Shown here one piece after another: positions 10,250 to 42,972 of a DNA stretch of 43,102 nt (position 1 is the stretch's first letter; the number at the start of each line of letters is the position of its first letter). The stretch is taken from IMG/VR virus record IMGVR_UViG_3300029258_000516, positions 1 through 43,102 of that record, one strand, 5' to 3'. The notes beneath the pieces are model-generated. The model was not told the DNA's origin, did no database searches, and saw nothing but the letters and a program-made list of their open reading frames with translations. The translations under genes and the position numbers were made by a program. The stretch comes from a virus.

Positions 10250-10310
10250 ACAGTTGTCGTCAAGGGGTAATTCGTTACTGGTTGCAAATTACCCCTTGAC
10301 AAAATTGACA
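10250..10310 (-). repeat. Intergenic hairpin element, copy A (full length)
   Basis: Read on the minus strand, the element runs TGTCAATTTT, then left arm GTCAAGGGGTAATTTG, a 10-nt loop CAACCAGTAA, right arm CGAATTACCCCTTGAC, then GACAACTGT. The arms pair over 16 bp with one G-U. It fills the gap between the gp6-like and gpI-like genes, and its tail touches the ribosome-binding site of the latter. No U-run follows, so it is not a standard terminator. Related copies are at 23214, 32470 and 42912. Confidence 0.9.
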
Positions 10311-14963: not shown

Positions 14964-17378
14964 CTATTTCTCCTCCTCGAGCTTAAACTTACGCAAGTTA
15001 GCTACATCAATAGCTTTTATTCCCCTAGCGTACGAACCCATCCTCTGAATAGCCAGTTTCGTCGTAAACGACGTTCCTACAGCTACTGAATGTTCAACGT
15101 GTGTAATCAGATAAACACCACTTAGATGATACATAGTGTAATTTTCAGTAACAATACTTATAAATATGTAGTCAAACAAGTCTACGTTGACATCTCCTAT
15201 AATCTCCATATCAGCTTGTATCATACCAACACGTTGAAACGACACCAACGATGCAGTATAAGTAGCTATATCAAAAGGTTCTCGCCGCTTAACCGACGAA
15301 TAAAACGGATACACTAACTTAGATATTACCGCTCTAGCCGTCTCAGTCATAACCTTAGCGTTAATATCCTCAGTCTTCTTCACAAGTTCTTTAATTTTGT
15401 CCAGATTTACATCAGAGTATAGCCTACATACAGTCTCTCCCTCAACAAGAGATGGCTTAAAGTCGGTTGACTTAGTTTTCCTGGTCAAACTTGTCGGAAT
15501 AGAACTAAAGTCATTAACTAAAATACCGCCATAGTACGGTAAAAATACACCGCCATCAGAGACAACTTCAAATGAGGTCACTTTCTCTTTAATACTCTGT
15601 CGTGGGTAAGTAAAGATATGAGTAGGCTTAAAACGCATATCTACCTGTTCGCCCTTTACAATAATTACGCTCTTACCTGTATTTTTACTAGGCGCTATAT
15701 CTACAAACAATCTTAGCAAATCTGGGTCTTCATCCGCCGAATCTGAAAAACCAGTTGGCGAGTAAAATCCACTATACTTGAACATATCCTGTAAGAACCC
15801 AAGAAGCTTGTCTCCTGGGTTACGCGTGTAACTTAAGTCTGAATAAAAATCCTGGCTGAATTTATATCGGTGGAACCCAAGCGACTCATCATATGAATTA
15901 ATAGCGAATTCAGCGTATGACTTAGCTACATCCTCAGACGGGACATTGCCACGCCTAGCGTCCATTACACCCTTAAGCTCATCGTCGCTAAATTCAGCAG
16001 ATTTTCCTTCAGCAAATACCTTTCGGAGAATATAAACAATAGTAACATGTAATCTATCGGCGAAAAATGCCCCACCAATCATTTCAGCGTACTCCTTCTG
16101 GGTATACCCAGAAGGTGGATTTGACAGGACATTAATACCAAAACTTGACGTACGAACTAGTGAGTCAAGTTTATTAGTAGCAAATTCAAACACGTCACGC
16201 ATGTACCCAAAAACATCTGTGTCACGGCAATCCCTATAAGCAGCATAAGGAATAGACATTACCTTCTCATTTAGAAACACAGACAGACTATCCTTAGTCC
16301 CATTTTGGGACGACCTTAATAGCCCTTCACCAATCTCAACGTCCATTCCGTACAAAGCAGCAAATATTAACAGTATATGTACAGGCGTAAAACATCCACT
16401 AAAATCCGGCTTTCCCAACACACAGTCATCAGGGTTATTAAAAACTGATACATGCGCCACACTGTTGTATAAAGTAGCACTATCAGCCATTAACTCTGAA
16501 CCAGTCTCTCCACTACCATGTACATATAGCTTATAATACGCCCTATAGTTCTCAAAACCCCCTATATCTGGAAATATATAATTCCCTGTAAGTAATTTAT
16601 TAATAACTTTAACGCATCTAGCAAGCTCAATTTCTCCATTTTTCACACGACGCATGAGCCCTCTAACATACGCCACATACTCGCTCTTAAACAAAACTAC
16701 AGGAGAACCATTTACATTTACAACTACATCCTTTCGCATAAACCTCTCAAACAACAGTTCCATTAACGAGTACGACAGTAACAGCGACATATCTTCGTAC
16801 ATATCCCATGTGTAATCAGTCGTAAAAGAACGCAATATAACCTTAAAAACATCGCTGTCTGGGTCATCCTGGTATGAGTAAGTATACGGAGTTATAGTAA
16901 AATATCCATCATCGTAAACTCTTGTAATAAAATCCACAAACTCATTATCACTCTTTATAGCGCCATAAACGACCCATGAGTAATAATAATTAAGAGTGTA
17001 CCTTACACCACCAGCAGTTATATCTGGACGTACAGATACCAAGTTACCTTCAAATGTACGCTTGTTCTCGTCAAGACCATCCCCCATCCAACCTAACGTT
17101 ACTTTAATAACATTGTCCGCGAACGGCACACCGTAAATAATTATATCCAACGCCGCCATAGATGGGTCAAACAATACAACTTCTATATCAAAACCACCTT
17201 CACCAAACGCCACTCTTACACTCTCTACTCCTATCTGCGATAAATAAATTGGGTTTAGTCCGTCAATTTTTTTACCATCTACAGTAGTGTAATCAGCATC
17301 TTCTGAAGAAGGGAATATACGCACCTTATTAAGAATAATTTCCAGTAAAACCTGTTGTGTCTCAACACTATCACCCAT
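14964..17378 (-). CDS. Baseplate hub protein, gp27/gpD-like, enlarged
   Basis: An 804-residue hub that would connect tail tube to spike. N-terminal residues 8-135 have the tube-like fold signature (SVRVAFGEGGFDIEVVLFDP, IKVTLGWMGDG, RTFEGNLVSVRPDI). The C-terminal ~110 residues fit the family ending (MIQADMEIIGDVNVDLFDYI, HLSGVYLITHVEH, then TKLAIQRMG). About 350 residues in the middle (~200-550), with helical stretches such as LMRRVKNGEIELARCVKVIN, have no counterpart I recognise; T4 gp27 has about 390 residues in total. No peptidase or lysozyme motif was seen. Its start overlaps the LysM gene by 8 bp and the spike follows at once, which is the standard order for this part of the tail. Confidence 0.8.
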   Translation of the reverse strand: MGDSVETQQVLLEIILNKVRIFPSSEDADYTTVDGKKIDGLNPIYLSQIGVESVRVAFGEGGFDIEVVLFDPSMAALDIIIYGVPFADNVIKVTLGWMGDGLDENKRTFEGNLVSVRPDITAGGVRYTLNYYYSWVVYGAIKSDNEFVDFITRVYDDGYFTITPYTYSYQDDPDSDVFKVILRSFTTDYTWDMYEDMSLLLSYSLMELLFERFMRKDVVVNVNGSPVVLFKSEYVAYVRGLMRRVKNGEIELARCVKVINKLLTGNYIFPDIGGFENYRAYYKLYVHGSGETGSELMADSATLYNSVAHVSVFNNPDDCVLGKPDFSGCFTPVHILLIFAALYGMDVEIGEGLLRSSQNGTKDSLSVFLNEKVMSIPYAAYRDCRDTDVFGYMRDVFEFATNKLDSLVRTSSFGINVLSNPPSGYTQKEYAEMIGGAFFADRLHVTIVYILRKVFAEGKSAEFSDDELKGVMDARRGNVPSEDVAKSYAEFAINSYDESLGFHRYKFSQDFYSDLSYTRNPGDKLLGFLQDMFKYSGFYSPTGFSDSADEDPDLLRLFVDIAPSKNTGKSVIIVKGEQVDMRFKPTHIFTYPRQSIKEKVTSFEVVSDGGVFLPYYGGILVNDFSSIPTSLTRKTKSTDFKPSLVEGETVCRLYSDVNLDKIKELVKKTEDINAKVMTETARAVISKLVYPFYSSVKRREPFDIATYTASLVSFQRVGMIQADMEIIGDVNVDLFDYIFISIVTENYTMYHLSGVYLITHVEHSVAVGTSFTTKLAIQRMGSYARGIKAIDVANLRKFKLEEEK

Positions 17379-17694
17379 TCTGACTTCTCGCTATAAAAGA
17401 TTGAATAAACAGCAAAGACGGTATTTTTAGAGTCTGTCCAGGATACATATCCGCAACAGGGTCGATTATGTTATTAAACGCAGCGATAAACCACCACAGC
17501 CTCTCATTGTTATAATACCTATCAGCGATTAAGTCCAAACACCCAACTTCAGGTGAATTAACTGTATGCTCAAGAAAATTTAATGAATCATCGCTATGTA
17601 AGATTTCAGACACACGCTTCCACAAATCAAAACAGTCCTTAGAGTCATATCTAAGAATTTCAGTATCAATATATCTTGAACTACGTGATAGCAT
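17371..17694 (-). CDS. Baseplate wedge protein with LysM domain, gp53-like
   Basis: A 107-residue protein. Residues about 51-95 form a LysM-like domain: GCLDLIADRYYNNERLWWFI, then ANN-equivalent AFNNIIDP, then MYPGQTLKIPS. In myovirus baseplates this LysM unit (T4 gp53 type) clamps neighbouring wedges; it does not necessarily bind peptidoglycan. The N-terminus (residues 1-45) is a short charged segment. ATG 17694 follows TAGGAGAGAG. The stop overlaps the hub gene by 8 bp, indicating translational coupling. Confidence 0.88.
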   Translation of the reverse strand: MLSRSSRYIDTEILRYDSKDCFDLWKRVSEILHSDDSLNFLEHTVNSPEVGCLDLIADRYYNNERLWWFIAAFNNIIDPVADMYPGQTLKIPSLLFIQSFIARSQNG

Positions 17695-17703
17695 CTCTCT
17701 CTC

Positions 17704-18435
17704 CTATGAATGGTAACCAGGCGGTGTAGCATATGGATACGGCATAGTTGCAAGATTAGGTAACGCCCTGTTATAATTGTCAAACTTAGTATTTGCTGAC
17801 GGAATATCCCTAAAGCTACCATTGTACACTGTGCTACCAACTACCGTGAAAGTAAGTAGCATTTCCGCATAAAAATTAACAACCGCATATTGCCGTTCAC
17901 CGTACTTAGTACTTGGAGTCATATACACTTCCTGTTCGTATCCAACAGGATTAAACCACGTCGTATTCATCGCTGTAATATACCCAGTTCTTCGAATACT
18001 CCAATTAGCAACAAAAATCAACTTTGGAGGAACATATTTATATCCACCTTGGGGGTCAATCCACGGGTATTGTAATGCTAGTAGATACTCATAACTAGCA
18101 TGAACCTCTGCCTTGGCGTTCCATGTAGAAAAAAATCTGACCATAACCTCAAGTTGTACGTTCTGAGAGCCAGAATAGAATTTGTGTCGTTCAGACCGCA
18201 TATAAGGGGCTACATCATCGTAGTTATGTATAACATTATCTTGGATTCCATACTCAAAATCCAGAAACTGCAAGTACAAAGGATATTGTATAGGATAGTT
18301 ACTTAAGTCAGCTATCCTCTTATACTCCTTGTAATTAGCTCCAAGAGGGTCTATCACCAAATACCCAACAGGCAACCCTTTATCTTTAGGAGTCCTATAC
18401 GTTACAGGACTTATTGGTTTTTCAGATACTGTCAT
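17704..18435 (-). CDS. Probable tube/baseplate junction protein
   Basis: A 243-residue protein whose ATG overlaps the tape-measure stop (TAATG). I do not recognise a precise family. The first 25 residues are a Pro-rich arm (EKPISPVTYRTPKDKGLPVG). The body has alternating beta strands (LYLQFLDFEYGIQD, SQNVQLEVMVRFFSTWNAKA, PKLIFVANWSIRRTGYITAM, VVNFYAEMLLTFTVVGS). The pattern of a tube-like fold with GYITAM...W and a final YAE..LTF strand resembles phage baseplate proteins found between tape measure and LysM wedge (T4 gp48/gp54 or Mu gp43-type position). The C-terminal 35 residues are Asn/Pro/Tyr-rich and probably extended. The role as tube initiator is inferred from position. Confidence 0.7.
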   Translation of the reverse strand: MTVSEKPISPVTYRTPKDKGLPVGYLVIDPLGANYKEYKRIADLSNYPIQYPLYLQFLDFEYGIQDNVIHNYDDVAPYMRSERHKFYSGSQNVQLEVMVRFFSTWNAKAEVHASYEYLLALQYPWIDPQGGYKYVPPKLIFVANWSIRRTGYITAMNTTWFNPVGYEQEVYMTPSTKYGERQYAVVNFYAEMLLTFTVVGSTVYNGSFRDIPSANTKFDNYNRALPNLATMPYPYATPPGYHS

Positions 18436-21400
18436 TATACACCTTCTTTACTGTGAAATAAGCTTACATCCCGCGTTTTACGCGTATTCTTCGAAGTTAC
18501 TTCAGTATTATCCTTAATGTCGGTAAGAACAGTAATCATTCTTTGGATTAAAGTAGAAAGTCTATTGTTAGAAACAATAAGTTCATCCGTTAATTCAGAC
18601 TTTGACTCTAACCCGCCATTACCCTGTGTTTGGAGTAATTCTTTTTCTATAATAGGAACTTTTCGTAAAGGTCTAAAGTCTTCCTCCTTTATTTTCCTAA
18701 TTCTATCTCGCTCAACTTCCATCTGAGCATTATCCACCATTTTCATGGTGGATGCTGTTACATCATTTAACTTTCTACTTATACTGCCGACATTATCGTT
18801 AATTTTAGTAAGTACATTAGAATAGTCCGTTTGTTTTCCAAAAATACTAGTCACATCTTGCATACCCGGCGCATTCATTTTACTTACAGGAGCTGCTATA
18901 ACAAGTTCTTTGCCTTTTTCTCCAACCATAGCAGGAGATGAAACAATACCCGCCACACCTTTTTGGTAACCTGGAACAGCACCTTCAAAGCGGTACGTCT
19001 CATTACTCATTCGCCATTCTTGGCGTCTAGTTGCTCCAACACCATATGCTGGTGGCATCATACCCTCATACTTTTTACGTTCTTTATACTGAGCGTTTAT
19101 AGCCTCCATTTCCTCACTCACACGTCTCAAAGATTTTTCATCAGGAGTGACAGATTTCAAAGCACCAAATACAACTGCCCCTACTCCAACAGCTGCTGCA
19201 ATACCGGCTATAGCTGCTACTGGATGTACTAATGACTGAGCTATTGCCGCAACAATACTAAATGTCTTTAGAGCAGCCACAGCAGCTAAAATAGTCGGCA
19301 CTATATACGATAGAGTCTCACCAAATGAAGCCACAACACTTACAACCTTAAATAGACCTTCAGCGATTAATTCAACTACAGGTAGAATTCTTTTAAGAGA
19401 CGGTAGTAGACTTAACATAAATACGTCTGAGACATTTCTAATACGACCTCCAGTTACTTTAACCATCATCTGAAATGTATCCATCTGTTCGTTAAGCATT
19501 TTAATAAACGGCGACTCAGCCATAGACTTAAGTCTAGCTTCCTGCTCTTGCTGAGCCTTTCGCATGTCTTCAGATATGTCAGACCACTTAGTAGAAGCAG
19601 CGTACATTGTCTCCAAAGCGTCTCTAGACAGACCAGTAATTCTCTCCCATATAGTACCAAACCTCAGTACACTCTCAGCTGGTAATTTCGAAAGTCCGGT
19701 CATTAACGCATCTAAAGCTTTTTGCGTGTCACCCCTAAGCAACAAAGTCTGGAACTCCATCACATTCATACCCATCAAACCGAATACGCCAGCAAACTTC
19801 TGGGCATTTGTAATGTCGAACATTCCAGACAATGTTTGAATGGCATCCTGCGCGTCCATACCAACTAGAGTAAGTGTAGCAACCGCATCTTCAATTCCAG
19901 CTATAGCTAAAGTAGCGTCACCACCCATTGTCTCTAATATAGCAAGTCTTCCTCGAAATACGTCTATAGCAGCCGCAGCATCTAAGAACGACATTCTACC
20001 CTTTTGCATAGCCATCGTCATATATTCTTGTACTTTAGTAAAACCAAGCATAGACACACCAGCAAACCGCAAAGTCTTACCCAGCAACACCCCTACGCCC
20101 TCAGCTGTAGCACCAAAAACTTTCCATGCCTGCGTAGATTCAGAAGCTAATTTTGTGTATAACTCCATTTGCTTCACACCACGCTCCCCAGCTTCAAATA
20201 TTTTTTGCATCATAGCCGTACCGAACATTTCAGATATTTCTTCTTCGGTAAGACCCTTTATAGCAGCGCCTCTAAATTGCTGCCACCATGCTTCTTTACC
20301 TGGCTGGTACATACCGCCAGCAGCACCTAATTGCGCCGCTCTATACTCTCGGTCAATTCCTTGAACCATCGTACGTATTAAACTAAAACCACCAAGAAGC
20401 CCAAGACCAGACTTTAATAATTTACCAAAAGCTGAGTCAATTTTCTTTCCAGACCTCTTAACTATGTTAGCTACACTCTTAAAAGTACCAGACACTATAC
20501 CAGACGTAGTACCTAGAGCTTTAAGACTGCCTACCGCATTTTTCATCGACATTATAGTATTTGTCAAAACATCCTGATGTTGTGGGGGCACAGCACCAAC
20601 TGATACAGATGCCCTATTCATTGCATCTATATAGTCGTTAACTGACCCAGAACTGTATTCAAGTTGCTTTAACACTGTATTAATAGACGAGCTTATTTTA
20701 GACAGTCCTTGTAACCCAACAGTCTCTACGCCATCACCTGCATTTTGTAACACCACCGACAGGTAGTCAAGACTCTCCATAAAATCACGAACAGCTGGAG
20801 CATCGACGCCAGTTGGAATAACTATGGACACGTCTCTAAGTTTGTCGCCTATTGATTCCAACTCCAAAGCTATTACTTCTGACAAATCTGCGTCTAATGG
20901 CAAACCTTCCTGGATACTCTCTATATTTTGTACAAACGCCTCAATCGTATTTGCAAGGTTAGTTCCAACCATACCCATCATAATCTGAGCTTTTTCCATC
21001 CGAGATTGAAATTCAGGAATACCTGAGAATTTTTCCTGGATGCCGGAAAACTCATCGATGTTTTTCTGCAACAATAAAAGCGAGTCATACGCCTTACTAA
21101 AATCAGTCATTGGTAATTTAACTATCTCCTTCGACATTAAATCACCAGACTCCTTCATCAAATTAAAGGCATCAGCAAAACCGCTTACAACATCCTCTGG
21201 TTTAGTAAAGAGGCTAGAAGCATCTTTAGCCGCCTCGTTAGCCTTTTTAATACTATTTGAAATACTACTTAACGCCTCTTTAGTATCCCCAAATTCATCA
21301 GAAAGCCCTTTTACAATATTGTCTATCGTATCTGAAACTTCAGACAAATCCTTAATACGTGTCTCGGTGGATAATCCTTTTCGGATAATATCCTTCACCT

Positions 21401-23198
21401 TAGGTGATATAAACACATCTTTTAGAAAATCTCCAACCTTACCTAATCCTCTAGATATAGACTCAGTATGAGCTTTTCCACTCTTTACTATCGCATCCTC
21501 AGAAACACGCATGGCATTGTATAACTTCTCATGCGGTACATCAACAAGTCTATCGACATCAATACCACTAATATTTTTGACAGCTTCGTCTGTAACGTCC
21601 TTCGCTATTTTTAGCGAAGCTTTACTTATGTCCTTACTAGTAGTTCTCACAGAGTTAATGGCGTTAGTAACTGCGTCCTTTATAGTATCAGTGATATCTA
21701 TAGGAGTGAAAGCTCCACCACCAGCCTGAGCTTTCACCGTAGGAATATGACGCTCTTTCTGTAATACAGCATCAATCTCCTTAGACATTAAATCTATACC
21801 TTCAACTACATGGTCGATAAGCTTAAGCTGAAACTTACCTAGTACGTCCAGTAAATCCTGCTCAAGTGACACAGCCACATTAGACATAATAAATTCTAGG
21901 TCATATTCCAAGTTAGACAATACGTCGTCACTTAAGTCAAATTTTATATCCTTAATAGTTGGAGCAAAATCTGGACTATCAGATATATCAGACGTAAGTT
22001 TTTTAATCACTGTCTTAGTCACATCAAACTTTTTAATACTAGCCTTTAGCTCATTCAGGTATTCATCTACCTTTGGAGCCTTAAAGTCAGGACGTAAATC
22101 AATAGTTTTTATACAGGCATGTAATTCTGGAACTTTAGGTAAATCTGACTCCGTCCATTCCTCTACGAAACCTTTAATTAATGGGTATATTGGTAACTTT
22201 TTGGATATCTCGCCAGCAAAATCTTCCCACGTTTTACCAGAGGCAGGGATAAACCCATCCACAACCAACTGAACAGTTAAGCTATCCTGAATACTCTTAA
22301 CAAACGCATCTAAATCATTTACATTAGATAATTTTAAATCCACCGCAGCTTTTACGTCAATATTCAGAGTCTTAGGATTATAACCCTTTATGTTAAGTTT
22401 AGCATCAACAGTTATAGGTGAACCCACTATAGTTACTACTTTAAGTGCCGCTGGGATTTTAATTCTAGCCCCCTCACCAGTGCCAGCGCCTTTAGTTCCA
22501 CTAGGCGTAAAATCACTAGTTGTTGTAACAGATACCACCCGTAAATAAGTGTCTATGGGCTCACGCTGTATTTCGTCCCTTATCGACGCCATCGATGAAG
22601 ATAAATCTAATGTTACACTTAGGTCTTTAGGCAAATTTGACACAGCATCAGTGATAGGCTTAATACTATTAGCTATCTCGCTTCCTATATTAGAAACCGC
22701 TTTGTTTATGACGCTAGGTAACGTAACCAACAACAGAGTAGTTAACTCCTGTGCAGCATTACCTATCCCAATACCACCAATCGGAGCTTTCCGTACTCCT
22801 AATGCGACAGCATCAGCTACTTCACTCACGATAACATCCTCGATATTACCTGATAATGAAGACACCCTAACTTTTAACGGTGTAGTTATATCAGCAGATA
22901 CCGTTTTAACTTTTTGTTGTATTTGGTTTTTTACATTTTTATAGAATGACTCAAGAGCTTTATCAAAACTATCATCGACCTTAATTTCCCCTACTGCGAC
23001 ACTTACGTCAATCTCCTTCGATAAACTGCTTATAGAGTCCGTCATTTCTGATAACTTTTCGTCGATATTTTTACTAGCTTTGTCAATAGCCTTATCCCAT
23101 GATTTAGCTGCATCTTCTATCGTCTTTGTAAAAGACTGTATTGATTTTAGTGCGTCTACTGCGTCTAGCTTTAATGATAGCGATATTATGTCAGCCAT
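18435..23198 (-). CDS. Tail tape measure protein
   Basis: The longest gene: 1587 residues, the expected scaffold that sets tail length (roughly 0.24 micrometre at about 1.5 A per residue, as a rule of thumb). It has long amphipathic helical stretches throughout. A hydrophobic cluster lies around residues 1270-1350 (FKVVSVVASFGETLSYIV, AAIAGIAAAVGVGAVVFGAL), probably the membrane-active part. A typical tape-measure motif follows: PGYQKGVAGIVSSPAMVGEK, then GKELV. The region ~990-1200 (AAQLGAAGGMYQPGKEAW, MTMAMQKGRMSFLDAAAAID) resembles the conserved tape-measure core of phages with alternating Ala/Gly helices. ATG 23198 follows GAGGACGTGTA, 16 bp after repeat element B. It follows the chaperone gene, as usual. 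Confidence 0.92.
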   Translation of the reverse strand: MADIISLSLKLDAVDALKSIQSFTKTIEDAAKSWDKAIDKASKNIDEKLSEMTDSISSLSKEIDVSVAVGEIKVDDSFDKALESFYKNVKNQIQQKVKTVSADITTPLKVRVSSLSGNIEDVIVSEVADAVALGVRKAPIGGIGIGNAAQELTTLLLVTLPSVINKAVSNIGSEIANSIKPITDAVSNLPKDLSVTLDLSSSMASIRDEIQREPIDTYLRVVSVTTTSDFTPSGTKGAGTGEGARIKIPAALKVVTIVGSPITVDAKLNIKGYNPKTLNIDVKAAVDLKLSNVNDLDAFVKSIQDSLTVQLVVDGFIPASGKTWEDFAGEISKKLPIYPLIKGFVEEWTESDLPKVPELHACIKTIDLRPDFKAPKVDEYLNELKASIKKFDVTKTVIKKLTSDISDSPDFAPTIKDIKFDLSDDVLSNLEYDLEFIMSNVAVSLEQDLLDVLGKFQLKLIDHVVEGIDLMSKEIDAVLQKERHIPTVKAQAGGGAFTPIDITDTIKDAVTNAINSVRTTSKDISKASLKIAKDVTDEAVKNISGIDVDRLVDVPHEKLYNAMRVSEDAIVKSGKAHTESISRGLGKVGDFLKDVFISPKVKDIIRKGLSTETRIKDLSEVSDTIDNIVKGLSDEFGDTKEALSSISNSIKKANEAAKDASSLFTKPEDVVSGFADAFNLMKESGDLMSKEIVKLPMTDFSKAYDSLLLLQKNIDEFSGIQEKFSGIPEFQSRMEKAQIMMGMVGTNLANTIEAFVQNIESIQEGLPLDADLSEVIALELESIGDKLRDVSIVIPTGVDAPAVRDFMESLDYLSVVLQNAGDGVETVGLQGLSKISSSINTVLKQLEYSSGSVNDYIDAMNRASVSVGAVPPQHQDVLTNTIMSMKNAVGSLKALGTTSGIVSGTFKSVANIVKRSGKKIDSAFGKLLKSGLGLLGGFSLIRTMVQGIDREYRAAQLGAAGGMYQPGKEAWWQQFRGAAIKGLTEEEISEMFGTAMMQKIFEAGERGVKQMELYTKLASESTQAWKVFGATAEGVGVLLGKTLRFAGVSMLGFTKVQEYMTMAMQKGRMSFLDAAAAIDVFRGRLAILETMGGDATLAIAGIEDAVATLTLVGMDAQDAIQTLSGMFDITNAQKFAGVFGLMGMNVMEFQTLLLRGDTQKALDALMTGLSKLPAESVLRFGTIWERITGLSRDALETMYAASTKWSDISEDMRKAQQEQEARLKSMAESPFIKMLNEQMDTFQMMVKVTGGRIRNVSDVFMLSLLPSLKRILPVVELIAEGLFKVVSVVASFGETLSYIVPTILAAVAALKTFSIVAAIAQSLVHPVAAIAGIAAAVGVGAVVFGALKSVTPDEKSLRRVSEEMEAINAQYKERKKYEGMMPPAYGVGATRRQEWRMSNETYRFEGAVPGYQKGVAGIVSSPAMVGEKGKELVIAAPVSKMNAPGMQDVTSIFGKQTDYSNVLTKINDNVGSISRKLNDVTASTMKMVDNAQMEVERDRIRKIKEEDFRPLRKVPIIEKELLQTQGNGGLESKSELTDELIVSNNRLSTLIQRMITVLTDIKDNTEVTSKNTRKTRDVSLFHSKEGV

Positions 23199-23213: not shown

Positions 23214-23264
23214 ACAGTTGTCGTCAAGGGGTAATTCGTTACTGGTTGCAAAAAACCCCTTGAC
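23214..23264 (-). repeat. Intergenic hairpin element, copy B
   Basis: Read on the minus strand: CGTCAAGGGGTTTTTTG, loop CAACCAGTAA, CGAATTACCCCTTGACG, ACAACTGT. The outer 10-11 bp of the arms pair perfectly; two T-T mismatches lie further in compared with copy A. It lacks the TGTCAATTTT left flank of copies A and D. It sits between the chaperone reading frames and the tape-measure gene, with its tail 16 bp before the tape-measure ATG. Confidence 0.88.
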
Positions 23265-23284: not shown

Positions 23285-23506
23285 CTACCTTCTTCTAGGT
23301 CTATTTGCACTATTTCTTTTCGCCTCGCGCATCGCTTCCTCATGAGCTTTTTTCTCTTCCATTAGTTGGTGATGTAATCTTTGTATGTTCCATATGCGCT
23401 CATCAGTTGGCATATCCATAACGGCAGTATAGTCGTAATTCTTTCCATAATACACCAAAAAGAACACTTGGTCGAATAAATCTCCGACATTACTACCTAG
23501 ATGGGC
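23285..23506 (-). CDS. +1-frame extension of the tail assembly chaperone (frameshift product C-terminus)
   Basis: A 73-codon open frame that begins inside the 3' end of the chaperone gene. It is +1 relative to that gene and has no convincing start of its own: the only ATGs upstream, near 23602, lack a ribosome-binding site and would translate the chaperone region out of frame. The residues after the shift read as a real protein: AHLGSNVGDLFDQVFFLVYY, MPTDERIWNIQRLHHQL, then an alternating Glu/Lys helix and a basic tail. MPTDER..W...RL.. resembles the second chaperone (T-type) of many tail gene clusters. A shift at UUU-UUU-C (23513-23507) would give a 487-residue fusion (23285-24749). Programmed shifting is inferred from the layout. 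Confidence 0.7.
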   Translation of the reverse strand, partial: AHLGSNVGDLFDQVFFLVYYGKNYDYTAVMDMPTDERIWNIQRLHHQLMEEKKAHEEAMREAKRNSANRPRRR

Positions 23507-24749
23507 GAAAAAATTCAGCAGTAAATGGCATCTCGAATCTGTTCGCAAAACCACACGCAGGACAATCAATAAACAACGTAGTATCAATTCTACCATCCGC
23601 ATTTTGAATTGCTAGACGCAACGTATTAGCATCACCAGCAATCATGTTCTTAACGTACTCAACTTTTGCGTCGAAGTCAGATACTTCCATACCATTAATA
23701 CCTACAATGGATAACGCCAAACGGTAAATATTTGAAGGGTCACCTTCGTCAGTAGACTGCATCTTGAGTCTTTTGGCGTATTTGGCGATAGTCTCTTCGT
23801 CTCTACCACGCAATAGCCTAAAATGAATGTAATCACCAGAACGTGGTAAATCAACTTCAAACGGCTCTTCAGCATCCTCGTCCATAAAATTCATAGATAA
23901 ATCAGACGATATATCTATAATTGTTTTTGGGTTGTAGTAATTACATGAAGCACACGTAAACGGTATTTCGTATTCAGAGCCATAAGAAAATGTTCGGATA
24001 TAAAGAAGTACAGCAAATCTGTCATTTATTGTTAAGTCAATAGGACTAAGCTTAGCCTTATCGTCATCAACAATGCAACTGTCCAATATTTTATTGATAT
24101 GCGCCAACGAGTCACCAGGAGAATACAATAACGACTCCTCCTTCGTGGTCATAGGGCATATATCTATTCTACCATCAACATAAGCACCTACGCTGCGATA
24201 TGGAATACCTTTTGACGGTAACTGCCCAACAAATCTTCGTATATGTGCTGGTTTCTGCTGCACGTAAGATACAGGTTGTTGAATAGGTGGTTGTTGAATA
24301 GGTGGTTGTTGAATAGGTGGTTGTTGAATAGGTGGTTGTTGAATAGGTGGTTGTTGAATAGGTGGTTGTTGAATAGGTGGTTGCGATTGATAATCGTAAT
24401 TATCATCTTCTGCGCTCTCGTCGTACTCATCCTGTTCAACGTAATCATTTGCGGGAATTTCGTCAGTAATGTTACTAACATTACCAGGAACATCACCTGT
24501 TACATCAGTAACTTTCGAAGACACTTTAACTTTTGGTCTTTTACCCCTAATAGGTGGGATTGGTGACGCAGACGGTGGGACAAAACTTTCTCTGGAAGCA
24601 CCCATGTTTGTTAGATGCTCCATAAGCTCTGGAGGTATATTTTTAGCCTTCTCAGAACCTATTACAGTAGGAAATGATTTAGGAACACTTTGCTCGGGAT
24701 TTCCTTTCGATAAAGGACGTCTTTTCTTAGGTCTACTACCTTTAGTCAT
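23493..24749 (-). CDS. Tail/baseplate assembly chaperone, T4 gp26-like
   Basis: A 418-residue protein. Residues about 165-418 resemble the T4 gp26-type baseplate chaperone family: QLPSKGIPYRSVGAYVDGRI, then CPMTTKEESLLYSPGD, FAVLLYIRTFSYGSEYEI, a CASCNY metal-site half and near the end a CPACGF half (4 Cys, zinc-ribbon-like). The N-terminal 110 residues are disordered, basic then acidic. Residues ~120-155 are seven PPIQQ repeats. ATG 24749 has a good ribosome-binding site (AAGGAGTGTGTT). It sits directly before the tape measure, where tail assembly chaperones are normally coded, and its 3' end overlaps a +1 frame (see the extension at 23285-23506). Confidence 0.8.
   Translation of the reverse strand: MTKGSRPKKRRPLSKGNPEQSVPKSFPTVIGSEKAKNIPPELMEHLTNMGASRESFVPPSASPIPPIRGKRPKVKVSSKVTDVTGDVPGNVSNITDEIPANDYVEQDEYDESAEDDNYDYQSQPPIQQPPIQQPPIQQPPIQQPPIQQPPIQQPPIQQPVSYVQQKPAHIRRFVGQLPSKGIPYRSVGAYVDGRIDICPMTTKEESLLYSPGDSLAHINKILDSCIVDDDKAKLSPIDLTINDRFAVLLYIRTFSYGSEYEIPFTCASCNYYNPKTIIDISSDLSMNFMDEDAEEPFEVDLPRSGDYIHFRLLRGRDEETIAKYAKRLKMQSTDEGDPSNIYRLALSIVGINGMEVSDFDAKVEYVKNMIAGDANTLRLAIQNADGRIDTTLFIDCPACGFANRFEMPFTAEFFRPSR
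24276..24380 (-). repeat. Seven identical 15-bp tandem repeats inside the chaperone gene
   Basis: The 15-bp unit TTGTTGAATAGGTGG (plus strand) is repeated seven times with no base change and encodes PPIQQ seven times on the minus strand. Identity at the DNA level, including third codon positions, points to recent slippage expansion rather than old protein repeats. Length changes by whole units would keep the reading frame. Confidence 0.97.
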
Positions 24750-24898: not shown

Positions 24899-25522
24899 TT
24901 ACTTAGTTGGGGTTGGTAAACCCCTCTCAACGTCAGCACCAGTACGTTCAAATACTAAAGGAACAACCCTGTCGGCTTTTAACGACACGGTTATCCTAAC
25001 GTAGTCTCCACCAGTATGGTCAATATCCCCTCGCTCAATTCTAGACGGATAGCAACCTTCTAGCCTATACCATCGATTACTATCAATCTCGCCATCCGTT
25101 CCAAACAACATAACATATGCGTATTGTTTGTACTTAGCCGCTTTATGCGCAGCGCCACTTAATGGGTTAAACGTCATAGCCCACCACGCATCTAAAATAT
25201 CAGCCACGTCACTTGTAACAAAGTCTCGAAGTACCCAGTTAGTATCATCAACAATAGCCTTTCCTGGAAACTTAACAGTCTCAAGAAACCACCCCATTGT
25301 TATGACTTCAACGCCGTAGCCTGGGAGATTACATGAATCTATAGACATAGCCAACATAATCTCTGGATTAGATAAACTCGAACGTATAATCTCGCTAAAG
25401 TTCATGACAGATACGTTAAAATTAACGTATATTGTGCCAACACTAGTACGCTGTGGTTCTCGTGTTACTTTACCAGTTGTTGAATACTTGCCGAGAAAAT
25501 CAGCACTTAATGGTATCGTCAT
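24899..25522 (-). CDS. Tail-tube-like protein, paralogue 5
   Basis: A 207-residue protein of the same family as the four preceding genes. N-terminal motif: REPQRTSVGTIYVNF. Middle: LAMSIDSCNLPGYGVEVITM, FPGKAIVDDTNWVLRDFVTS, then FNPLSGAAHKAAKYK. C-terminal: EGCYPSRIERGDIDHTGGDY, then VRITVSLKADRVVPL. This layout (outer strands, a long KDFVD-like strand-loop, W, GA, and a GDIDH...DYvRI..tl..Drv.P ending) fits myovirus tail tube proteins. ATG 25522 follows AGGTGTAGT and lies 7 bp after paralogue 4. It is the member nearest the chaperone. Confidence 0.85.
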   Translation of the reverse strand: MTIPLSADFLGKYSTTGKVTREPQRTSVGTIYVNFNVSVMNFSEIIRSSLSNPEIMLAMSIDSCNLPGYGVEVITMGWFLETVKFPGKAIVDDTNWVLRDFVTSDVADILDAWWAMTFNPLSGAAHKAAKYKQYAYVMLFGTDGEIDSNRWYRLEGCYPSRIERGDIDHTGGDYVRITVSLKADRVVPLVFERTGADVERGLPTPTK

Positions 25523-25529
25523 ACTACAC

Positions 25530-26156
25530 CTATTTAGTTAATTTACTAACTGCGTCAGTTAAATTTAATGGTGATGTTCCACCAGGAAGGTATTTAGCTG
25601 CTCCACTACCAAGTTTACCTTCCATAAACCACGGCACAACCCTATCCACAGAGAAAGTTACTGTAATTCTAACATAGTCAGACGTATTCTGGTCTAAATC
25701 ACCGCGAGCTATATGCGACGGAAAACATCCTTTGAGAAGATAATACCGCATATTCTCACCTGCTGTGTCGTATATAACAGCATATGCATCTTTCTTAATA
25801 GTATACGCCATCTCCATCTCACCATTACCTGGACTATACACTTGGTTGAACCATTTGTCTATGGCAAGCATACCGTCACCATCAACGAAGTCCTTTATAG
25901 TCATGTCAATATCGTCAAACACAGACTTCCCAGCAAAGCTAACAAATTCATTAAAATAACCTACTTGGATATCCTCTGTGCCATAAGACGGAAGACGCAA
26001 CGTATCTATGGCTAGCGCCAACACTTTAGGGTCATTTATCACAATCCCATCTATTAATGGAACATATAAAAACCCACTATTCTGACGCTGTGGCTCAAAC
26101 TCTCTTTCCTTAATAAAGGAGTCTGCGTGAAATTCTATGCTGCTTGGAGTAGTCAT
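25530..26156 (-). CDS. Tail-tube-like protein, paralogue 4
   Basis: A 208-residue paralogue. Shared motifs: EFEPQRQNSGFLYVPL, LALAIDTLRLPSYGTEDIQV, GYFNEFVSFAGKSVFDDIDM, then TIKDFVDGDG, FNQVYSPGNGEMEMAYTIK, and LKGCFPSHIARGDLDQNTSD followed by YVRITVTFSVDRVVP. The start is ATG 26156 (AGGAGGATTTG upstream); the TTG one codon earlier lies within that spacer. It is spaced 9 bp from paralogue 3. The C-terminal ~25 residues (GKLGSGAAKYLPGGTSP) differ from the other copies. Confidence 0.86.
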   Translation of the reverse strand: MTTPSSIEFHADSFIKEREFEPQRQNSGFLYVPLIDGIVINDPKVLALAIDTLRLPSYGTEDIQVGYFNEFVSFAGKSVFDDIDMTIKDFVDGDGMLAIDKWFNQVYSPGNGEMEMAYTIKKDAYAVIYDTAGENMRYYLLKGCFPSHIARGDLDQNTSDYVRITVTFSVDRVVPWFMEGKLGSGAAKYLPGGTSPLNLTDAVSKLTK

Positions 26157-26165
26157 CAAATCCTC

Positions 26166-26882
26166 CTAGTACGCCTGTTTGTTGAAACCAACCTTTAACT
26201 TTTTACCAAGGTCTATAGGCTGGGTAATATTTCGAGAATTAAAATCCCTACTATTGGGATATGTTCCAGCACCAGATAAACCCCAGTCTTTAAGCTCATC
26301 CTCTGGAACCCGATATAGCTTATCTATAGCTAGCGTTACATTAATTTTAACATAATCAGAAGAATTACCATCAATATTTCCAAAATTTACACTTATTGGA
26401 AAACAAATCATACGATAATACCGTGAGAGATTACCTGTAGGGTCTATAAGACAAACAAAGGTATTGACACGGTACGCTATCTTTGGATTAATAGCCCCAT
26501 TATATTCGTTGTAAATAAGATACAACCACTTATCAATTATCCTAGCCGTTGGTATGTCCACAAAATCTCTAAGTGTAAGTTCAAAATCAGGAAACTCAGC
26601 CGACGTAGGGTATTTACGCCGCTCATTATTATAGGATAAAGTAGTCGTATTAATTACAATTTCAGGCAAGCTACTAGATTCGAGTGACATCAATATTATC
26701 TTGTTGTCAGCCTCCTGAAAACCTGATATAAGTGATGTATCAAACCTAAATAATACAAACCCCAAATAAGACATCTGAGGTTGAAAAGTTCCACCATAAG
26801 GCGCACCATCTCGATATCTTAGAGCACTTCCTAAGAATTTAGCTGACATCGTTGGTGTTCTACTTGGAACAGGTAAGGTCAT
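26166..26882 (-). CDS. Tail-tube-like protein, paralogue 3
   Basis: A 238-residue paralogue, the most diverged at the N-terminal motif (TFQPQMSYLGFVLFRF in place of FEPQRQNNGFLFVPL). It keeps ILMSLESSSLPEIVINTTTL, FPDFELTLRDFVDIPTARII, KWLYLIYNEYNGAINPKIAY and ISVNFGNIDGNSSDYVKINV. The start is ATG 26882, chosen over a TTG at 26906 that lies inside the previous gene. Its ribosome-binding site is weak (TAGGCGTATA) and its start lies inside the end region of paralogue 2 (8 bp after that stop), so coupled translation is likely. A C-terminal 40-residue tail is basic and Asn-rich. Confidence 0.85.
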   Translation of the reverse strand: MTLPVPSRTPTMSAKFLGSALRYRDGAPYGGTFQPQMSYLGFVLFRFDTSLISGFQEADNKIILMSLESSSLPEIVINTTTLSYNNERRKYPTSAEFPDFELTLRDFVDIPTARIIDKWLYLIYNEYNGAINPKIAYRVNTFVCLIDPTGNLSRYYRMICFPISVNFGNIDGNSSDYVKINVTLAIDKLYRVPEDELKDWGLSGAGTYPNSRDFNSRNITQPIDLGKKLKVGFNKQAY

Positions 26883-26889
26883 TATACGC

Positions 26890-27618
26890 CTATGTTGGTA
26901 TTTCAAGTTTAATATCTATATCACCAGCTGTCATTGGATTGTAATAAAGTGCTATTTCAGGTATCCATCCATGTGATATCAAAAAAACTTCGTCGTAGTG
27001 GATAGTTAAAGTCATCTCTAATATATCTTCGTCAGCAAAGTCAATATCGCCTCTATCTATAGACGACGGAAAAGCACCTTTGAGCATATAAATCTTAGAA
27101 TAAACCCAATCAGCATTCGGTGATAATGTCATCAAAAAAACATCTTGCTTGTATCCAGCAAGAGATGGAATAATCGCCTTAGGGCTACTAGAAGCCCAAC
27201 CTACAGCACCATTAACAGCATTATAGACTGTCGCTCTCCAAAACTCTAAAGCGTGAGCCACGGGAACATCAACATAGTCAACAAATACCATAGATATTTC
27301 TTGTGTCCTATGTTGCCCAGCATAAAACCTTTTTTGGTTAAAATACCCAAGCTCAATAATCTCATTTTCATCTTTCGGTAATTCTACACTCTTAAGAGCC
27401 ATCGCAAGAGTACCTGGTAAATATGCTGGAAATCCCGATATACCCTTAAGTTCTTGAAGTGGAACAAACAAAAATCCATTATTACGCCTCTGTGGCTCAA
27501 ACCCGTAATAATCTTGTTTGTTAACCGCTGAGCCGCCAATAAAATTAGCCGAAAACAGACTTTCAACTAGAGGAAAATTTGTTTTAGCGCCAACTTTACC
27601 GACTTCTTTCTTTCCCAT
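26890..27618 (-). CDS. Tail-tube-like protein, paralogue 2
   Basis: A 242-residue paralogue. The shared motifs are GFEPQRRNNGFLFVPL, LAMALKSVELPKDENEIIEL, GYFNQKRFYAGQHRTQEISM, VDYVDVPVAHALEFWRATVY, NAVNGAVGWASSSPK and LKGAFPSSIDRGDIDFADED. The final motif is altered (ILEMTLTIHYDEVF instead of DYVRI..TL..DRV.P). I start it at ATG 27618, 8 nt after AGGA. The longer frame from TTG 27657 would translate through a terminator-like hairpin (27635-27666). Being separated from paralogue 1 by that hairpin, it may be made in a different amount. Confidence 0.86.
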   Translation of the reverse strand: MGKKEVGKVGAKTNFPLVESLFSANFIGGSAVNKQDYYGFEPQRRNNGFLFVPLQELKGISGFPAYLPGTLAMALKSVELPKDENEIIELGYFNQKRFYAGQHRTQEISMVFVDYVDVPVAHALEFWRATVYNAVNGAVGWASSSPKAIIPSLAGYKQDVFLMTLSPNADWVYSKIYMLKGAFPSSIDRGDIDFADEDILEMTLTIHYDEVFLISHGWIPEIALYYNPMTAGDIDIKLEIPT

Positions 27619-27634
27619 AAACATTCCTAACAGT

Positions 27635-27666
27635 AAGAATAAGGGGATTGGCGTCAACCAACCCCC
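27635..27666 (-). terminator. Terminator-like hairpin between tube paralogues 1 and 2
   Basis: On the minus strand GGGGGTTGG, loop TTGACG, CCAATCCCC pair over 9 bp with one G-U, followed by UUAUUCUU. It lies in the only sizeable gap (61 bp) within the tube-gene cluster. The U-tract is interrupted, so termination may be partial; it could instead be an RNA-stabilising hairpin at the 3' end of a sheath-tube transcript. Confidence 0.55.
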
Positions 27667-27679
27667 ATTATTAATACAT

Positions 27680-28324
27680 CTATGGAGTCTTAGGCGGAGT
27701 TAGAGTGGAAAAACCACTACCAGCACCGACATTCTCTGGGGAAACGCCAGCATCAAGAGCTAATAGAGGTATAATTCTATCACACGTAAGTGTGGCAATT
27801 ATACGTAAATAGTCGTCAGATGCATGGTCAATATCACCCTGGTCTAGTCTCGAAAGCCATACACCATCAAGCTGGAAATACCTAAAGTAATCAGGTCGTC
27901 CATCAGGTGGGTATAACGCCACAAAGACTCCATTTAACTTATATTCGCGCGCAAATCCAACCGCACCATTAACAGGATTAGAGCAGCACAGTCTCCACTG
28001 ATGTAACAGTTTCGCAGTATCAGAATCTACAAAATCCTTAAGCTGCACGTCCATATCTTCGAACATCATAGAACCCGCAAATTTAACTCGCATGTTATTG
28101 TACGGTACTTCTATTATGTTATTCGAATACTTCGGAGCAGGGAAAGAATCAATACTGAGAGCGATAATACTTTCAGCGTCCTGATTAGCTGCAAAACCAC
28201 CAGCAGATAAAAGAGCTGGCAATCCAGTTAAGAACAACAACGAGTTGTTTTGACGCTGAGGTTCAAATGTCTGCTTTGAGCCATAAGTACCTAAGTGACT
28301 TGCGTCTAGTCTAACTGGCATCAT
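27680..28324 (-). CDS. Tail-tube-like protein, paralogue 1 (next to the sheath)
   Basis: A 214-residue paralogue directly downstream of the sheath, the usual place of the major tube gene. Motifs: TFEPQRQNNSLLFLTGLP, IALSIDSFPAPKYSNNIIEV, VKFAGSMMFEDMDVQLKDFV, SNPVNGAVGFAREYKLNG, then LSRLDQGDIDHASDDYLRII and TCDRIIPL. The first of two consecutive ATG codons, at 28324, follows AGAGGTGATTT. The transcript is followed by a terminator-like hairpin, which would allow high expression with the sheath. By position I regard this as the likeliest main tube subunit, but the sequence alone does not prove it. Confidence 0.87.
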   Translation of the reverse strand: MMPVRLDASHLGTYGSKQTFEPQRQNNSLLFLTGLPALLSAGGFAANQDAESIIALSIDSFPAPKYSNNIIEVPYNNMRVKFAGSMMFEDMDVQLKDFVDSDTAKLLHQWRLCCSNPVNGAVGFAREYKLNGVFVALYPPDGRPDYFRYFQLDGVWLSRLDQGDIDHASDDYLRIIATLTCDRIIPLLALDAGVSPENVGAGSGFSTLTPPKTP

Positions 28325-28338
28325 AAATCACCTCTTTC

Positions 28339-30462
28339 TTAAACTGATGCGCCGGCACCTTCAAGAACAAACTCAATGACTATCTTCTCAGCAGTCTTTA
28401 ACGGCACAAGTATGACCCTTGCGTGCATTTCAAGCTGGTCTCTAACCGCAGGAGGATTAGTAGACTCATCACAAATAATTGTGTAATCTTCTAAACCACC
28501 AGACGATTTGATACTAGAGAATATAGGGTCAACAAGCGCCTTAAATCTAGCCCACAGAAAAGCGTCATTCTGTTCGAAAGTCAAATATTCACACGATGAG
28601 ACCACACTTCTTTGGATGTAACACATCATACGCATAACATTCACGCGGTTTCGCGCAGTATTACGTCTATAAAGTGTTTTTTGTCCCCAAATGACAATTC
28701 CAGTGTTCTGGAAATCCACAATCGAATTAATCGCGTTTGGATGCCCATACAGAATAATACGCTCTGCTCTTGTAGGAGAGTATTCCACTTCCTGAGCGTC
28801 ACGTAACACACCTCTGTTTCTACCAGCTGGAGCATTCCATGGGTAAGAAACTTCATCAGTGTACGCCATCTGTGCAGCGGCAAAACCCGAAGGTGGAAGC
28901 CATACATCCATACGGTTATACGCATCATAACGTTTTATCCACGCCCAATCCAATATACCGTATTCATTGTTAAACGCAGCATGGGAATACCCAATACCAT
29001 TGTGCCAATTCGCAACGTCAGTAGTAGTTAAACCAAACGGTGGGTCTACTATAAACATAGCGTCTTTTCTGTCAGCACACACAGCTAATCCTGCATTTAC
29101 AACCGAGCCGCTCGACACTCCAGGAACTGCCAATAAGTCGATAACTACAGATTCAGGATTAGCCATAACCTGAAGTCCACTTGCAGAACCACCAGCATAC
29201 GTGCCAATGTAATCCGCATCAGCGATACCAGCTGTGCCATCGCCACCACCCGCTAAATCATACAATCCAGACATAGGTTGATACCCAGATGGTACTAACG
29301 GAACAGTAGCTGTCACATAAGCTGACTTAGCTATCTCTCCAGAAATACCGTCGTTTATTACGTCCTCTATATACCTTTCGGAATTAGAGTCCATAACGAC
29401 ATCTTCAAACTTTTCAACTTCAGCAACAGCGCCGTACCTATCAGCTAGTGCTTGAATTGCCACATCAAAATACGGGTCTCTGTAGCATACAACAAGTTGT
29501 GACGCAGCTGCTGGAAATAGTGTTATTGAAATAGCTCCTGTGACGTAATCAATGGTTCCAGCAGCAATGTTAGTTCCAGTTATCGCTCCAGCGCCATTGT
29601 CGACACCTATCGTAGTCATACCACCAGCACCATCACTCCCCATCACGTAAACAGTGTTAGGCTGTATTAAGTTGGTATTTTCATACGATAAGACAGGATT
29701 TCCAGCAAGAGTTTCGTCCCATTGGACTGTAGCACCACCTGTAGCAGTAAACGTCTCGTTGTACTGTACTGAACGATATGTAGCCGTAATGTCAGTGAGG
29801 TTATCAGGTGCACCACTACCACCAAAAACTACCACAAGGTCACCGGTCTCATAATCAACAGTACCTATATCACCAACAGCTGGACCCGCTAAATTACCAA
29901 GACCGTCGTCAGTAAATACCACTACGTTACTACCAACAATAGCATTTATCTGAACTGTGCCTGGAAGAACCGGGAAATTAGTCAATGAGCTAATATTAGC
30001 AACAGGAATAGATTGGAAATTAGTAGTAATACCATCTCCTTGACCAAGAACCTCACTATACTCATCATCTTCTTCAAGCAATATCTGAACTTTTAGGTCA
30101 TCACCCCATGTTCCAGGAGAGATAGCCTCGAAGTCAACAGTGGGAGAAGAATCAGAAGGATAGTCATTTATTGTCACAGATGACTCTACAGCTGGTGTCA
30201 GACCGCTCTCAACCCTTAGAAACGCAACAATCTGACCCCTCTGCAAAAACTGTATGGCTGACTGAACAGCATAATCTGGAAGAGAAGTAAGAGGTAAACC
30301 CACTTTGTTAACTAGGTCTTGCTCCCCGTAACATAGGATAGGTTTATTTATCTCACCTTTTGTGGCAGTACCTACTACACCGAAAATAGTAGCACCACCA
30401 AGATTAGCGTACTCAGACTCATCTCGAGTCTCGGTGTATACGCCTGGGTCTATCTTAGGCAT
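28339..30462 (-). CDS. Tail sheath protein with two inserted beta modules
   Basis: A 707-residue contractile sheath subunit. The N-terminus is classical (MPKIDPGVYTETRDES, then GVVGTATKGEINKPILCYGE), as is the C-terminal domain (RNRVNVMRMMCYIQRSVVSS, FEQNDAFLWARFKALVDPIF, then DESTNPPAVRDQLEMHARVI). Residues ~130-240 and ~240-330 are two DDG/GTIDY modules (DDGLGNLAG with GTVDYETGD; DNGAGAITGTNIAAGTIDY) inserted in the surface-exposed part where many sheaths have extra domains. The start is ATG 30462 with AGGAGGTGATA upstream; a GTG two codons earlier overlaps that site. It precedes the tube-like genes, as in most myoviruses. Confidence 0.95.
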   Translation of the reverse strand: MPKIDPGVYTETRDESEYANLGGATIFGVVGTATKGEINKPILCYGEQDLVNKVGLPLTSLPDYAVQSAIQFLQRGQIVAFLRVESGLTPAVESSVTINDYPSDSSPTVDFEAISPGTWGDDLKVQILLEEDDEYSEVLGQGDGITTNFQSIPVANISSLTNFPVLPGTVQINAIVGSNVVVFTDDGLGNLAGPAVGDIGTVDYETGDLVVVFGGSGAPDNLTDITATYRSVQYNETFTATGGATVQWDETLAGNPVLSYENTNLIQPNTVYVMGSDGAGGMTTIGVDNGAGAITGTNIAAGTIDYVTGAISITLFPAAASQLVVCYRDPYFDVAIQALADRYGAVAEVEKFEDVVMDSNSERYIEDVINDGISGEIAKSAYVTATVPLVPSGYQPMSGLYDLAGGGDGTAGIADADYIGTYAGGSASGLQVMANPESVVIDLLAVPGVSSGSVVNAGLAVCADRKDAMFIVDPPFGLTTTDVANWHNGIGYSHAAFNNEYGILDWAWIKRYDAYNRMDVWLPPSGFAAAQMAYTDEVSYPWNAPAGRNRGVLRDAQEVEYSPTRAERIILYGHPNAINSIVDFQNTGIVIWGQKTLYRRNTARNRVNVMRMMCYIQRSVVSSCEYLTFEQNDAFLWARFKALVDPIFSSIKSSGGLEDYTIICDESTNPPAVRDQLEMHARVILVPLKTAEKIVIEFVLEGAGASV

Positions 30463-30515
30463 TATCACCTCCTATAATTCATTATTAAGAAGCCACTGAA
30501 TAACGCATGTTATTT

Positions 30516-38779: not shown

Positions 38780-38790
38780 ACTTCCTCCGA

Positions 38791-38847
38791 AATTAATCGT
38801 AAGAATCATTTTAATTAAGTAAATCAGAAGATAAACTGCGATTAATT
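38791..38847 (-). promoter_or_regulatory. Inverted repeat in the leader of the capsid gene
   Basis: CGATTAATT (38839-38847) and AATTAATCG (38791-38799) form a perfect 9-bp inverted repeat with 39 bp between the arms. One arm overlaps the stop of the protease-scaffold gene; the other ends 6 bp before the capsid GGAGG. In the mRNA it would make a long-range hairpin ending next to the ribosome-binding site. The A+T-rich stem is weak, so its effect is uncertain. Confidence 0.5.
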
Positions 38848-42897: not shown

Positions 42898-42926
42898 AGT
42901 AAATTTATTATTGTCAATTTTGTCAA
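42898..42926 (-). promoter_or_regulatory. Candidate sigma70-type promoter of the head block
   Basis: On the minus strand TTGACA (42926-42921, inside element D), 17 bp and TTTACT (42903-42898). A second TTGACA (42917-42912) and a perfect TATAAT (42898-42893) are present too, but at spacings of 13 or 22 bp, which are poor. Leader to the first gene would be about 120 nt. Only a candidate. Confidence 0.35.
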
Positions 42927-42972
42927 GGGGTATTTTGCAACCGGTAACGAATTACCCCTTGACGACAACTGT
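42912..42972 (+). repeat. Intergenic hairpin element, copy D (full length, inverted)
   Basis: On the plus strand TGTCAATTTT, GTCAAGGGGTATTTTG, loop CAACCGGTAA, CGAATTACCCCTTGAC, GACAACTGT. It matches copy A over 61 bp except for two bases (TAA to TAT, CAG to CGG). It points away from the genes, opposite to copies A and B, and lies 140 bp upstream of the first head gene. Confidence 0.9.

Follow-up and report, generated by a model that had tools for sequence, protein, structure and literature searches.

Five tandem tail-tube paralogues behind a single sheath gene in a virus record: a candidate set of specialised tube subunits

Introduction

Tail tubes are usually viewed as stacks of one protein. 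AFP/PVC injection systems carry more than one tube gene per machine (Afp1 and Afp5), and here we describe a virus locus with five such genes in tandem, t1 to t5. They occupy positions 24,899 to 28,324 of an IMG/VR virus record of 43,102 bases (IMGVR_UViG_3300029258_000516), which was analysed whole and is called the window below.

Several systems with more than one tube protein have been described. In the Vandenendeviridae, phages Adele and JG004 carry three tandem tube genes, TPP1-3, which are 24-29% identical in Adele (PMC12846349). That work, from 2025, traces them to an ancestral duplication, places them in separate groups of the family tree and proposes that they are specialised and placed differently, so that the idea of specialised tandem tube subunits is already in print for this three-gene family (PMC12846349). 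In T4, the tube line consists of 138 copies of gp19 and six each of gp48, gp54 and gp3 (PMC3004832), and Bacteroidales BIS clusters encode a Tube1 and a Tube2 (PMC7394362).

For the five genes of the window we lean, with moderate confidence, towards a reading in which t1 is the main shaft subunit and t2-t5 are lower-copy, specialised ring subunits, probably located near the baseplate.

Results

A tandem array of tube paralogues

The array lies on the minus strand, 3' of a tail sheath gene (28339..30462, minus strand; 707 residues from its ATG) that matches PF04984, PF17482 and phrog_23 (E 7.8e-74). All on the same strand, there follow t1 (27680..28324; 214 residues), the proposed main tube subunit; t2 (26890..27618; 242 residues); t3 (26166..26882; 238 residues), the fastest-evolving copy; t4 (25530..26156; 208 residues); and t5 (24899..25522; 207 residues). 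A first-pass annotation of the window had reported five intact open reading frames of these sizes behind a single sheath gene, with different C-terminal tails. Our analysis agrees on each count and adds the strand, which had not been given. The size of t2 is obtained from an ATG at 27618, its open frame beginning 13 codons upstream at a TTG; the record contains one full-length sheath match and two short matches elsewhere; and every paralogue has a tail of its own. The computed masses are 23.1-27.1 kDa.

The five proteins are 25-38% identical in a joint alignment and 30-41% identical pairwise. The motif order that the annotation saw in all of them is indeed shared, in a looser form than it gave: t3 has FQPQMSYLGF and FGNIDG, t2 lacks DYVRI, and NGA becomes NGE in t4 and SGA in t5. 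All five match phrog_4542, annotated as a tail tube protein, with E values of 2.8e-8, 2.2e-10, 1.1e-15, 1.5e-16 and 2.9e-11 for t1 to t5, which as sequence matches stand far above chance. In the Pfam search, PF06841 (gp19) gave matches below the curated cut-off to t4 (E 1.2e-4) and t5 (E 0.041) and none to t1, t2 or t3. The tube profile barely detects T4 gp54 (E 0.0074). The placement of the array, 3' of the sheath and ahead of the hub and tape measure, fits tube genes.

AlphaFold models of t1 and t3, built on an alignment of 30 rows from the window and viral contigs, reached mean pLDDT values of 78.9 and 71.7, with low-confidence N- and C-terminal stretches in both. Using Foldseek, the best match of the t1 model was T4 gp19 (E 6.1e-10, TM 0.77 by target length), and those of the t3 model were the KP1 tube (E 3.1e-8) and gp19 (E 9.0e-8). 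Both models also resemble AFP/PVC chains, a similarity seen in the fold only. A gp19-type tube fold is predicted for t1 and t3. The annotation had raised the possibility that the extra copies are baseplate proteins unrelated to tubes. For t3 the predicted fold contradicts this; tube-fold junction rings of the T4 gp48/gp54 type remain the leading reading for some copies.

The extra tube-fold proteins might also serve elsewhere in the tail, as tube-sheath anchors, in whisker or fibre attachment or as neck parts, which we regard as distinctly unlikely. The individual C-terminal tails would suit such jobs, that of t2 being partly conserved in its counterpart c2 of a second virus (see below), as would the basic character of t3 (computed pI 8.4). 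In addition, phage phAPEC6, which has three tandem tubes in its virions, carries fibres at three tail levels (PMC7247149). Against this stands the tube core, kept in all five copies: across 30 aligned tubes, its P, D, W and G positions do not vary.

Conservation of the set

A 155,386-base IMG/VR contig of the same virus also carries the five genes, identical at the DNA level (100%), and may share reads with the window record. The tube profile detected no sixth tube gene in this contig, and an apparent stop in one of its matches reflects an alignment running into the t2 leader, t2 itself being open. A diverged second virus, L013, is represented by a 6.5-kb fragment from another IMG/VR dataset and encodes a sheath, six tubes (c1-c6) and a hub, the outer genes being cut by the contig ends. 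Protein identity is 58% for t1/c1, 54% for t2/c2, 28-30% for t3/c3 and 44-46% for t4/c4, while t5 is 46% identical to c5 and 40% to c6. Paralogues within the window, for comparison, are 25-38% identical. The window sheath is 54% identical to the partial L013 sheath.

In a tree of 46 proteins, the 11 array tubes of the window and L013 form one clade (96/98), within which copies pair by position: t1/c1 (100/98), t2/c2 (100/100), t3/c3 (95/88), t4/c4 (97/84) and t5/(c5,c6) (99/94). The last bootstrap of this tree had not quite settled (correlation 0.983), and in smaller trees the t3, t4 and t5 groups had weaker support or did not resolve. The 46-protein tree omits the near-duplicates L015, L017, L020, L024 and L037 and three 121Q proteins, and Mel-JY01, with a very long branch (4.09), was dropped from later trees. 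This topology indicates a single origin of the array and a later duplication of the t5 type into c5 and c6. Since each position pairs with its counterpart across the two viruses, the five-fold set most likely existed before they split. The annotation had proposed a phylogeny of the copies in relatives as a check on whether the set is conserved, and it is: the order of the copies is unchanged in L013, which has one more.

In every orthologous pair, codon positions 1 and 2 are more alike than position 3, and third positions are nearly at chance. For t3/c3, identities at the three positions are 0.43, 0.57 and 0.33, against 0.28, 0.26 and 0.29 after shuffling. This pattern indicates purifying selection on all five genes. 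Relaxed selection on the extra copies was looked for through the codon positions and was not found in any pair.

The same data bear on two other explanations. Redundancy, with duplicates that have no role, or an error of assembly would be compatible with the fast evolution of t3 (28-30% identity to c3). We consider this extremely unlikely, as the array recurs in the 155-kb record and in a diverged virus from another dataset, with intact orthologues conserved at codon positions 1 and 2 over 3. Alternatively, the tubes could be interchangeable, with different copies serving under different conditions, or their diversity could help to evade tube-sensing defences such as DSR2. A bacterial defence that recognises a phage tail-tube protein is in print (PMC10981675), yet in both diverged lineages each copy has kept its place and identity, no gene-switching inverted repeats were found in the array, and a constant set of five would presumably offer more targets, not fewer. 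This explanation is therefore very unlikely in our view.

Alignment scans with all five copies, t1, t2, t5 and the sheath recovered L013 and no third array virus of this kind; for one of these scans, the best 80 of 220 confirmed stretches were kept. When single proteins were searched against the viral collection, the window's own virus was the only one to come back; a scan of the genome collection with t1 gave no relative, and a nucleotide search of the array region against named phages gave no match. Contigs L107, L108, L109 and L111, with an 18-bit second tube match, were considered as a further array and set aside; in L107, the one contig examined, the two tubes group with jumbo-phage copies. 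In L107 (7116-8885), a sheath and a phrog_4542 tube are accompanied by a 381-residue second tube that groups with the last copies of jumbo-phage arrays; L108, L109 and L111 gave similar matches.

Position of t1 relative to single-copy tubes

Two sets of loci combining sheath, tube and hub were compared outside the window virus and L013; a single tube gene was present in all 24 of the first and all 30 of the second. One contig occurs in both sets, some members are near-duplicates, and the second set comes mostly from the best 80 of 220 stretches. The second set was drawn from 80 loci with matches, of which 30 had a sheath, a hub and one tube; in 19, one tube lacked at least one of these neighbours; in 25, the stretch contained no tube; L107, L108, L109 and L111 made up four; and two belonged to the window's virus. 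Mean identity to 22 single-copy tubes is highest for t1 (32.9%, compared with 25.2-29.6% for t2-t5), and t1 holds the place 3' of the sheath that these tubes hold. On this basis we propose t1 as the old main tube copy.

Two sheath genes in tandem were observed in the viral contigs L036, L037 and L039 and in a number of L043-L106; two-sheath phages have been published before (PMC9230969).

Hairpins and expression layout

A hairpin with a T-rich tail (GGGGGTTGGTTGACGCCAATCCCC; 27643..27666, minus strand), found by the terminator scan, lies in the t1-t2 gap and is proposed to act as an attenuator; its extended form has an energy of -20.7 kcal/mol (z -3.2). Across the region the scan found 11 candidates, with 5.3 expected (standard deviation 2.4). 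The c1-c2 gap of L013 has a clear terminator in the same place, with 13 pairs and a T run (z -2.1). The gaps 3' of c3, c6 and t5 contained nothing beyond shuffled sequence (z 0.8, -0.2 and -0.2), and the other junctions are too short. Hairpins detected 3' of the L013 sheath (z -5.2) and of c5 (z -2.0) were disregarded, as they fall within the following coding region. Among the 11 arrays examined, a hairpin follows copy 1 in eight: those of the window, L013, RaK2, 121Q, CBB, PA5oct, RAS14 and JG004. In JG004 it has a z of -3.2, and the later junctions are too short for one. The SP-15 record has an annotated terminator right 3' of its single tube gene. A high-copy first subunit with lower-copy ones after it would be in keeping with this pattern, which is not proof of it.

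The annotation had given every copy its own ribosome-binding site; the sites proved uneven, with duplex energies of -7.1, -4.2, -2.4, -10.2 and -3.7 kcal/mol for t1 to t5.

These features also bear on a mixed shaft, in which all paralogues would be major subunits, as alternating rings or with several paralogues per ring. This explanation would be favoured by the strong Shine-Dalgarno sites that t1, t4, c1 and c5 carry, and by five intact copies in conserved order under purifying selection. The products are also of similar size and acidic in six of six cases in L013 and four of five in the window, t3 being the exception. On the other side are the hairpin that follows copy 1 in the window virus and L013 as well as in six of the nine other arrays, and the unequal rates, with t1 and t2 conserved about as well as the sheath (58%, 54% and 54%) and t3 far less (28-30%). 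Overall, we judge a mixed shaft unlikely. A special form of it, with hetero-hexameric shaft rings in which each paralogue has a fixed place, the six L013 genes supply six positions and t5 fills two (those of c5 and c6) in the window virus, is highly unlikely. If true, it would mean a contractile tube without six-fold identity.

Tandem tubes and their products in other phages

Most myoviruses had been credited in the annotation with one major tube gene. The rarity of tandem tubes that this implies is not borne out, as arrays of two to four occur in named phages: among jumbo phages, two copies in PA5oct, Atu_ph07 and RAS14, three in RaK2, 121Q and CBB, and four in SCTP-2. These sit in another part of the tree, which argues that the extra copies of jumbo phages arose separately. 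PHROGs classes the three tube genes of JG004 (L128; 10291-11869) as 'head and packaging, virion structural protein' (phrog_280). A stretch of PAK_P4 had no tail gene annotated and was left aside.

Products of such genes have been detected in virions. A note in the PA5oct record gives mass-spectrometric detection of both tube products, and the virion proteins of CBB include CBB_205 and CBB_207 (PMC5259590). In purified phAPEC6 virions, mass spectrometry identified gp273c, gp274c and gp275c, labelled hypothetical (PMC7247149). Their masses in Table 1 of that paper (25.07, 28.76 and 40.42 kDa) are the same as the values calculated for the three tube genes of 121Q, which indicates that extra tube paralogues enter virions in that group. 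For RaK2, the published account proposes other genes, ORF106w/107w, as tube candidates. The suggestion of the first-pass annotation that the tube is built from more than one subunit type is likely to hold for the virion: the set is intact and position-conserved in L013, extra products occur in jumbo-phage virions, and the 2025 proposal for the Vandenendeviridae points the same way (PMC12846349).

Neighbouring tail module

The structural genes on the minus strand follow a T4/SP-15-like order: head protease and capsid, head-tail adaptor, sheath, five tubes and the PF12322 hub. The hub gene (23493..24749, minus strand; 418 residues; PF12322 E 2.4e-10; phrog_150, baseplate hub) has a proline-rich repeat N-terminus. 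Next are a tape-measure-like gene (18435..23198, minus strand; 1587 residues), of a size and position as in SP-15 and LIS04 and without a match in the PHROG search; a CIS_tube-like gene; a LysM/gp53-like gene; and more baseplate genes, including gp25. The CIS_tube-like protein (17704..18435, minus strand; 243 residues) stands at the place of CIS_tube (PF19266) in SP-15 and LIS04; it gave no direct Pfam match and is 20% identical to SP15_048 (pairwise E 5e-5). The LysM/gp53-like baseplate wedge protein (17371..17694, minus strand; 107 residues) matches phrog_7145 (E 1.6e-12) and LysM (E 0.013, under the cut-off).

The hub N-terminus is encoded by a 15-base tandem repeat with PPIQQ-type units (24259-24398). 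Relative to the window, IMGVR_UViG_3300017987_000265 shows a 15-base gap and a hub frame five codons shorter, so its repeat probably has one unit fewer. The sheath and the major capsid protein have a repeat-like stretch in common with two genes of the tail region (5751-6896, 6915-10238, 28339-30468 and 37349-38809), with phrog_6128 and phrog_1014 matches. Separately, a near-perfect palindrome of 40-51 bases (TCAAGGGG...CCCCTTGA) occurs at 10250-10300, 23214-23264 and 42913-42963, where it precedes three gene starts on the minus strand by 12, 16 and 142 bases. It is present at six places of the 155-kb contig, and a reversed control pattern at none.

Discussion

In the arrangement that we favour, the array would have arisen by tandem expansion of the gp19-type tube gene of an SP-15-like contractile tail. 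The t1 protein would be the ancestral main tube subunit and make most of the shaft; t2-t5 would be less abundant, and each would make a ring or a few rings of its own at a fixed place. The likeliest place is the stack joining the baseplate hub to the shaft, as for T4 gp48 and gp54, and one of the four may sit at the head end. The lower amounts of t2-t5, their homomeric rings and the location of these rings are inferences.

A number of observations weigh against this arrangement. Some concern the hairpins. The T run of the t1 hairpin is imperfect (TTATTCTT), that of CBB is weak (z -1.6), and three of the 11 arrays (SCTP-2, Atu_ph07 and L107) have no hairpin 3' of copy 1. The related phages RaK2, 121Q and CBB also have hairpins ahead of the first tube gene, and the window has others 3' of the capsid gene, before the tape measure and before position 10238. 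Seven of 22 single-tube loci have a hairpin at z -2 or lower, so that it is not a constant mark of a main tube gene. Translation signals pose a further difficulty: t4 has the strongest Shine-Dalgarno site of the five (-10.2, compared with -7.1 for t1) and c5 is slightly above c1 (-9.3 and -8.9), with which rarity of all of t2-t5 fits poorly. The separate CIS_tube-like gene 3' of the tape measure, a weak match, implies that at least one junction ring may come from elsewhere. As for virion data, CBB_206, the second CBB copy, appears nowhere in the text of the CBB paper (PMC5259590), and phAPEC6 peptide numbers, which are no measure of copies, are 2, 3 and 7 for T1-T3, the first copy not being top (PMC7247149).

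Five or six tube genes kept in order in two diverged viruses, alongside independent expansions among jumbo phages and the Vandenendeviridae, point to a recurring way of building a tube from specialised subunits. The question is testable now in laboratory-grown relatives, for example Escherichia phage Sharanji on K-12 MG1655 (host according to its record), which has a three-gene array with 98.3% identity to the 121Q one.

With respect to known systems, SP-15, LIS04 and GXN1 share the order of sheath, tube, hub and tape measure with the window and differ in having one tube gene each; GXN1 is sparsely annotated and has other small open reading frames between its tail genes. After the tape measure, SP-15 and LIS04 have a CIS_tube-type gene, and SP-15 a phrog_7145 gene as in the window. 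T4 resembles the proposed array in its gp19 fold and in combining one major with three minor ring proteins, whereas its gp48 and gp54 are larger (39.7 and 35.0 kDa, compared with 23.1-27.1 kDa here) and gp3 sits at the neck. AFP/PVC and BIS systems have fewer tube genes and no phage genome.

Among tandem arrays, those of jumbo phages are similar in having several phrog_4542/phrog_13438 tubes close together, directly 3' of the sheath in RaK2, 121Q and CBB. They differ in their separate part of the tree and fewer copies; RAS14 has a gene between its two, and in RaK2, 121Q, CBB and Atu_ph07 the next gene is a head-closure or head-completion gene, as against the baseplate hub in the window. The Vandenendeviridae share tandem tube paralogues and, in JG004, the hairpin 3' of copy 1. 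They differ in having three copies, phrog_280 tubes in JG004, and a chaperone gene, not PF12322, next; in JG004, the one phage examined, the tubes did not match the tube profile built here (E 0.085-0.14). No paper on a set of five or six tandem tube genes was found in the open-licence literature. The five or six tubes described here, in a separate lineage, are the largest set seen in this analysis, and the array is a larger, ordered version of a layout known from other phages.

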